Shown here in pieces: positions 43,047 through 44,188 of a DNA stretch of 52,000 nt. The translations under genes and the position numbers were made by a program. The stretch's first letter is position 1, and every line of letters starts with the position of its first letter. The stretch is from positions 1 through 52,000 of the forward strand of contig JAHITY010000031.1 of assembly GCA_018817165.1 (NCBI GenBank). The letters run 5' to 3'. Source of the stretch: Candidatus Omnitrophota bacterium (lineage in GTDB: Bacteria > Omnitrophota > Gorgyraeia > B26-G9). Under the pieces are notes generated by a model. It was not told the origin of the DNA. It searched no databases and worked only from the letters and a program-made list of their open reading frames with translations.

Positions 43047-43228
43047 AAATGAAATCTAAACCTGATTGATTTTGAGACTTGAGACCCAGCTGGCATTGTG
43101 TCCTTGTGATCTTGGGAAGTCCCGCCTGGCACTTTTTGCTTAAAATCGTGATATTTCGTGATAAATATGCTAAAAATAGGCTTTTTTTTGCTTATTTTAA
43201 TAAAAAAATTAGCATAATTCGCATACAT

Positions 43229-43238
43229 AGGGTATAAT
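43229..43238 (+). promoter_or_regulatory. Candidate -10 element for the pilin leader RNA
   Basis: A perfect TATAAT at 43233-43238 lies about 65 nt before the riboswitch-like segment. No good -35 hexamer is seen 17 nt upstream. A second perfect extended -10 (TGCTATAAT, 43372-43380) lies inside the riboswitch insert and could start a shorter transcript lacking the 5' half. Confidence 0.4.
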
Positions 43239-43302: not shown

Positions 43303-43472
43303 GGCAAACCTCACGTGAGTGAGGGGCGTCCCAAAAGTCGGTTTGGACATTAGGGACCTCGAAGAAAAGAATGCTATAATATATAAAATATTTTTCGAGG
43401 CAAAGCGACGGGTCTAAAAAGGGAATAGTATTAATGGATCGTATTGTTTTCAGATTAGACAGCCGGGCTACC
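43303..43472 (+). promoter_or_regulatory. Cyclic-di-GMP-I (GEMM) riboswitch with a 72-nt internal insertion
   Basis: The 5' half has the GEMM start GGCAAACC (43303-43310) and a P2 hairpin CCTCAC-GTGA-GTGAGG with a GNRA tetraloop, then GGCG (43325-43328). The 3' half resumes with CAAAGCGACGGGTCTAA (43401-43417) and ends AGCCGGGCTACC (43461-43472), matching the conserved 3' strand. Normally GACG and CAAAGC are contiguous. Here they are separated by 43329-43400, which can fold as two abutting stems: TCCC/GGGA, then CCTCGA/TCGAGG. An intrinsic terminator follows at once and a type IV pilin gene lies downstream, a known kind of c-di-GMP target. Identification is by motif; the insertion could weaken or abolish ligand binding. 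Confidence 0.7.
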
Positions 43473-43496
43473 AAAAAAATGGTGCGCAATACTCCA

Positions 43497-43534
43497 ACCG
43501 AACTATCTGGGACAGATAGTGCGGTTTTATTTTA
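43497..43534 (+). terminator. Intrinsic terminator downstream of the riboswitch
   Basis: ACCG plus ACTATCTG pairs with CAGATAGT plus CGGT, with one unpaired base on each side, followed by TTTATTTTAT. It starts 24 nt after the aptamer, the arrangement expected for transcription control of the pilin gene. Confidence 0.8.
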
Positions 43535-43756: not shown

Positions 43757-44188
43757 ATGAATAGAAATAGAAAAGGTTTTACACTTGTTGAATTATTGAT
43801 GGTAGTTATCATCATTGGTATATTGATATCAATTGCAATACCAAATTATTTTAAAACAATCGAAAGAACCAAAGGCGGTTCAGCGAAGGCAGTGCTTGAT
43901 TCTGTTAGAAAAGCAGAATTACAGTATAGAGCTATGTATGGTAATTTTGCCGACGTAGCTGTTGGTGACTGGGCTGCTGGTGATATTTCTGCGTTTGATT
44001 ATCCTGAAGTTTTGGCAACTGCTGCTGGTGATGATGGGAATTGGATATACACTGTACAAAATTCAACCGCAGATGTTTTTGAGGCAGTAGCTACAAGAGG
44101 TGCTAATGCACCTACGGCTTATCAAGGTGTTACAATGATCTTAGACCAAGATGGATTATTTAGTTCAGAAAATCCGGTTCATCTATAA
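43757..44188 (+). CDS. Type IV pilin / pseudopilin (major-pilin-like)
   Basis: The 143-residue prepilin has a short basic leader (MNRNRKG) cut by prepilin peptidase before F8, giving FTLVELLMVVIIIGILISIA with Glu5 of the mature N-terminus. The long hydrophobic helix continues through PNYFKTIERTKGGSAKAVLDSVRKAE. The globular part is small (about 90 residues) and resembles short pilins of GspG or PilA type. The ribosome site AGGAGGAA is strong, and there is a dedicated terminator, so it is monocistronic and probably highly expressed. The upstream c-di-GMP riboswitch suggests control by the motile-to-sessile signal. No other pilus gene is in this window. Confidence 0.92.
   Translation: MNRNRKGFTLVELLMVVIIIGILISIAIPNYFKTIERTKGGSAKAVLDSVRKAELQYRAMYGNFADVAVGDWAAGDISAFDYPEVLATAAGDDGNWIYTVQNSTADVFEAVATRGANAPTAYQGVTMILDQDGLFSSENPVHL

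Follow-up and report, generated by a model that had tools for sequence, protein, structure and literature searches.

A widespread architectural variant of the c-di-GMP-I riboswitch in Omnitrophota, with two abutting hairpins inserted beside the ligand pocket

Results

The window, by which we mean the whole 52,000-nucleotide stretch of DNA that was analysed, lies on contig C87 of a Candidatus Omnitrophota genome of 143 contigs and 3.08 Mb, and it contains a leader whose GEMM-I aptamer (43303–43472) sits upstream of a type IV pilin gene. The gene on the 5′ side of the leader is presumably mannose-1-phosphate guanylyltransferase-like, as judged by reading of the ORF alone. The parts of the leader and the gene that follows it are these:

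43209–43238, forward strand: putative sigma-70 leader promoter, TTAGCA-18-TATAAT, matching the consensus at 10 of 12 positions, the number of such sites being not above shuffle expectation
43303–43327, forward strand: 5′ part of the aptamer, with G20 (43303), G21-C22, AAA and P2 with a GTGA tetraloop, its last base being C44 (43327)
43328–43357, forward strand: inserted hairpin A, GTCCC...GGGAC, from folding and the alignment of relatives
43358–43399, forward strand: inserted hairpin B, CTCGAAGAA...TTTTTCGAG, with zero linker to hairpin A and with TGCTATAAT in its loop
43400–43417, forward strand: resumption of the core, with G45 (pairs with C22), C46 (pairs with G21), A47-A49 and the 5′ strand of P3, GCGACGGGTCTAA
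43418–43454, forward strand: distal P3 stem-loop of the aptamer, from folding
43455–43472, forward strand: 3′ strand of P3 and J3/1, TTAGACAGCCGGGCTACC, with G83 (43462) and C92 (43471)
43496–43534, forward strand: intrinsic terminator, AACCG-ACTATCTG/CAGATAGT-CGGTT and then TTTATTTT, which is the expression platform
43757–44188, forward strand: presumed regulated gene, type IV pilin-like, with an N-methylation motif (PF07963, E 6e-9)

A terminator and a downstream pilin had already been called in a first-pass annotation of this DNA, and both calls hold, in that a hairpin at 43496–43526 is followed by a T-run and the ORF at 43757–44188 has the PF07963 match (E 6e-9).

Aptamer positions follow the Vc2 numbering as used in PMC3764141, and of these G20, A47, A48 and C92 are key for the c-di-GMP ligand (PMC3764141, PMC4744006). 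Both halves of a GEMM aptamer lie where the first-pass annotation had placed them, and the ligand-contact bases G20, A47 and C92 are kept at 43303, 43402 and 43471. P2 is present with a GNRA tetraloop (CCTCAC-GTGA-GTGAGG) and its pairs are 100% kept in alignment A1, conservation of the core being, for some bases, partly built into the search patterns. C44, which is in the P2 internal loop, pairs with the bulged G83 of P3, and directly beneath C44 is the G45-C22 pair, which is contacted by A49 (PMC3764141, PMC4744006). Both partners of the C44-G83 pair are present in the window (C43327 and G43462) and both are invariant, so that the pairing itself is not gauged by covariation. The P3 helix is present with one pair replaced by a G-G mismatch, and P1 is weak, as it is in other Omnitrophota elements; the idea that the insert described below compensates for the loss of P1 was rejected, because P1 is equally weak with and without it. 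The folding z-score of the element is −4.6, with 0 of 200 shuffles equally good.

At the Rfam gathering threshold RF01051 did not detect the window element, and at a relaxed threshold the aptamer appeared as two separate halves, which in a whole-genome search scored 24.1 and 25.6 bits, below the cut-off of 35. Two sister elements with a like insert exceed this 35-bit cut-off (42.2 and 39.2 bits). A covariance search allowing for a large insertion had been proposed as a check on the aptamer, and it succeeded where Rfam alone gave sub-threshold halves: a model (R2) built from 21 related elements, with the window element and its ortholog left out, recovers 43303–43472 end to end with 43.7 bits and an E value of 9.3e-8 in the 52-kb window, where its next-best match has an E value of 1.

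The feature that breaks the contiguity of P2 and J2/3 (GACGCAAAGC) is an insert of 72 nt between C44 and G45, next to the pocket for c-di-GMP and the interhelical C44-G83 pair, and because of this interruption the window element is classed as a variant c-di-GMP-I and kept apart from the standard members. The 72-nt split had been given in the first-pass annotation, but the bases before it are GGCG and not GACG. Limits of 43328–43399 fit all relatives, and the limits first proposed, 43329–43400, are one base to the right, since the last C of hairpin A can pair with either G43328 or G43400; the two registers are equivalent in the window because 43328 and 43400 are both G. The register is fixed by other loci, at which the first pair of hairpin A is C-G, A-U or U-A, and also by insert-free orthologs (L127, L129) that read GGGC-GCAAAGC across the site. 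The two abutting stems with zero linker stand as first described, though they are now registered as GTCCC/GGGAC and CTCGA/TCGAG in place of TCCC/GGGA and CCTCGA/TCGAGG.

Each of 62 inserts has an MFE fold with exactly two top-level helices, the first of which begins at insert base 1 in all but one of them, with zero nucleotides between A and B in 57 and zero trailing in 58; the outlier L095, with 19 trailing nucleotides, arose where the script took a later CAAAG. Standard pairs make up 97.2% of the four outermost pairs of A and B across these 62 elements, versus 58.7% when arms are exchanged between loci. In covariation alignments of 20 and 21 sequences with trimmed loops, all five pairs in each of helices A and B vary on both sides and 92–97% of their cells are paired, and for the whole structure the paired cells drop from 97% to 31–49% when slid; the division between A and B was chosen per sequence, which somewhat inflates these paired-cell counts, and in the shuffle test, which allows for that choice, 12 of 20 inserts have both stems with at least five outer pairs and zero linker, versus 0.08 expected from dinucleotide shuffles. 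A and B together span 25–78 nt and have no conserved sequence, except that C-G pairs are favoured close to the base, and with GNRA present in only 4 and 6 of the 62 A or B loops, docking by GNRA loops of the insert is not supported. Of about 60 Omnitrophota inserts read, all but a few doubtful or decayed ones are exactly two abutting hairpins, and the window element has this same layout at C44/G45.

The window's own genome has five insert elements (C87, C100, C123, C126 and C139) and one clear insert-free GEMM-I (C125). An exact-pattern scan of 84,980 species genomes gave eight matches, seven of them in Candidatus Omnitrophota; the eighth (L020, Alicyclobacillus) was discarded, being an ordinary GEMM aptamer that by chance has GGCAAAC upstream of it, and no genuine case was found outside Omnitrophota in those species with this one exact pattern, which misses short or divergent inserts. 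Likewise discarded were 24 IMG/VR pattern matches, which are without P2 plus the two-hairpin layout. A similar pattern run over 384 genomes of the window's own phylum gave 16 matches in 11 genomes, and its reversed control 0. A second covariance model, R1, which tells insert-free elements (span about 38) apart from those with the insert (span 63–116), has a match in 305 of the 384. About 60 of its best approximately 150 matches are of the insert type; they come from 44 genomes, representing about 21 families, and some lie beyond the window's class. The window's family (12 genomes) has about 26 insert and 21 insert-free elements among the matches listed, all such counts being made by hand from top-ranked matches and not a census. 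A pattern for inserts of 6–24 nt found no one-hairpin version in the 384 genomes, its sole return (L070) being 25 nt long and already made up of two hairpins. L181 appears to have decayed, and L182 and L183 are false positives. The insert-bearing form is thus a widespread architectural variant of c-di-GMP-I in Omnitrophota.

Two readings had been offered at the outset, namely a new structural variant with its core still closing around the insert, and an inactivated switch, in which the insertion broke the aptamer and a promoter within the insert, TGCTATAAT, drives the pilin constitutively. The extended −10 string is indeed at 43372–43380, in the loop of hairpin B, and Rfam returned sub-threshold halves only, as would be expected of inactivation, but there is no −35 at the normal distance, 16–18 nt from this string. 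TGnTATAAT occurs in one of the 62 inserts and TATAAT in four, and no promoter conservation was found within these 62. Dozens of elements whose cores are conserved carry the insert at one site, as a recurrent folded domain, and R2 recovers the whole aptamer although the window element was left out of it. Inactivation with a replacement promoter is therefore most improbable. The structural variant is strongly supported by the same-site insert in dozens of elements, by the compensatory changes in its stems, and by the presence of the insert in an orthologous pilin leader of another genus.

That leader came from the comparison with the pilin leaders of relatives that had been suggested as a check. 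The ortholog of the window's pilin in another genus (G276, L089/L123) has 46% protein identity, and its leader has the same two-hairpin layout, the bases of both hairpins being different, followed by P3 and a similar terminator; in a third genus (G194, L124) the insert is also found ahead of a pilin. At another set of orthologous leaders the insert varies in its presence, with L127 and L129 insert-free and L003, L107 and L022 having 60–77 nt at the site, and with homologous genes downstream (by protein comparison of L127 with L003).

We also considered whether the insert is a regulatory module, forming an antiterminator or pseudoknot by base-pairing between hairpin A (loop GGTTTGGA) and the terminator's 5′ arm (TCCAACCG). 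In the window, 43329–43348 can pair with 43492–43512 at −18.6 kcal/mol, which is equalled in only 3–4% of shuffles, and the ortholog L089 has GGTGGT opposite ACCACC. However, hairpin A alone (−11.3) and the terminator (−15.6) are together more stable than the duplex between them, and the pairing in L089 is not significant (0.27–0.35). Over 57–62 loci, native combinations do not outrank swapped ones (mean ranks 0.49–0.53), by which a general pseudoknot of either the A or the B hairpin with the expression platform was rejected, and this regulatory pairing is very unlikely for the window leader as well.

A separate observation on the expression platform is that in some leaders the 3′ strand of the aptamer is duplicated (for example GATCGCCGGGCGCACCGA... 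and then GATAGCCGAGCTGCCGA...), and the second copy often serves as the terminator's 5′ arm, hinting at an expression platform that works by strand exchange. The duplication is found in 11 of 62 insert elements (L003, L004, L015, L017, L019, L022, L025, L034, L070, L092 and L093) and in 2 of 31 insert-free elements (L045 and L067), with 0 in a reversed-pattern control. The window leader has a single copy.

Discussion

The window element is not an inactivated switch but a four-way-junction variant of c-di-GMP-I, and we put at roughly 85% the probability that it is a working c-di-GMP-I riboswitch of an Omnitrophota architectural subtype. P2 has an asymmetric internal loop at its base, and hairpins A and B, set one directly after the other at the C44/G45 step, would convert this loop into a four-way junction whose arms would be the upper stem of P2, A, B and the two-pair stem C22-G45/G21-C46. 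Because the insert folds on itself, C44 could still pair with G83, and G20, A47 and C92 could still hold c-di-GMP. Binding of c-di-GMP by the window RNA is likely, since these contact bases are intact, and the intact pocket, the 18 GGDEF matches in the same genome and the kinds of gene that adjoin such elements (pilins, a PilZ protein, an HD-domain protein and a CHASE-domain protein) together point to a c-di-GMP-responsive transcription-termination switch, in which the element would bind c-di-GMP and control the terminator ahead of the pilin gene. Hairpins A and B may then serve as a structural or kinetic peripheral domain, acting by junction stacking or by delaying synthesis of the 3′ half, and their role would be geometric and not sequence-specific, because sequence and length vary freely, whereas the number of hairpins (two) and the lack of linkers are constant.

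The main rival to a role of this kind is a neutral expansion segment, in which the aptamer works and the insert, itself functionless, is self-folding RNA that an exposed site can accommodate. The absence of conserved sequence, the range of 25–78 nt and the existence of insert-free orthologs are consistent with such a segment, but it is harder to reconcile with two hairpins and almost zero linkers throughout, with the failure to find a one-hairpin form in the 384 genomes, and with compensatory changes that preserve the pairing even of inserts whose sequences are entirely different, and we regard it as unlikely, if less so than the other alternatives. Going further, one might tentatively propose that the two hairpins form a functional module altering how the switch behaves, either by sensing a second signal or protein or by tuning kinetics or affinity through the junction beside the pocket, and that it is exchanged between paralogous switches.

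One locus bears a separate mosaic pattern. The flanks and gene of L107 (G269:C102) match those of its ortholog L003 (G000:C100), at 56/59 upstream and 256/284 coding positions, and its hairpins A and B are closer to the paralog L002 (G000:C123), at 23/27 and 28/32 versus 16/27 and 22/30 for L003, a pattern that exchange of the hairpin pair among paralogous switches would produce.

The nearest comparator is the RF01051 family, as represented by Vc2 of Vibrio cholerae, with which the window element has in common G20, A47, C92, the C44-G83 partners, a GNRA-capped P2, P3, a terminator platform and c-di-GMP-type targets, and from which it differs in the two extra hairpins between C44 and G45 that split the Rfam match. 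The structure descriptions consulted (PMC3764141, PMC4744006) contain no mention of a two-hairpin insert at this site. The c-di-GMP-I-GGC (RF03167) and c-di-GMP-I-UAU (RF03168) models, which belong to the RF01051 clan, were the best models for the window halves at the relaxed threshold. These two families are defined by changed pocket bases, unlike the window element, which has the standard G20, A47 and C92 and scores 27.7 against a cut-off of 59 and 22.3 against 65.9. The cGAMP riboswitches (GEMM-Ib, Geobacter) have a fold in common with the window element and carry a changed pocket base, A at position 20, where the window has G20; no two-hairpin insert in them was found in the passages of PMC8835794 consulted. 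Tandem c-di-GMP-I riboswitches are likewise unusual multi-part GEMM leaders, but they are complete aptamers in series (PMC9481103), whereas the window has a single aptamer interrupted internally, its leader containing P2, CAAAGC and the 3′ half once each. No earlier description of a two-hairpin c-di-GMP-I insert was found in the open-licence papers searched, so that the novelty is provisional, and the papers searched contain no mention of riboswitches under the name Omnitrophota.

The c-di-GMP-I class is among the best studied of riboswitches, and this natural four-way-junction form has a large domain beside its pocket and key interhelical pair, with natural orthologous leaders both with and without the domain making its contribution directly testable. 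In Omnitrophota, a poorly studied phylum, the hairpin pair is found at one fixed point in dozens of copies, and because standard covariance searches split or under-score elements with the insert, c-di-GMP regulons in these genomes are probably undercounted.

Two further groups of elements differ from the window element in their cores. The insert-free GEMM-I of the same genome (L009, G000:C125:42774-42862) has A at position 20 (ATAGCAAAACC...), which makes it a candidate cGAMP-type aptamer, and L120 and L176 have A at this position too. L014 (G000:C139:111639-111727), L184 and L185 form a divergent insert-bearing subgroup with a non-consensus P3 (GCAAAGCTGATGCGTCCG...GGCAGGCTGCC) and a strong terminator-like hairpin downstream.
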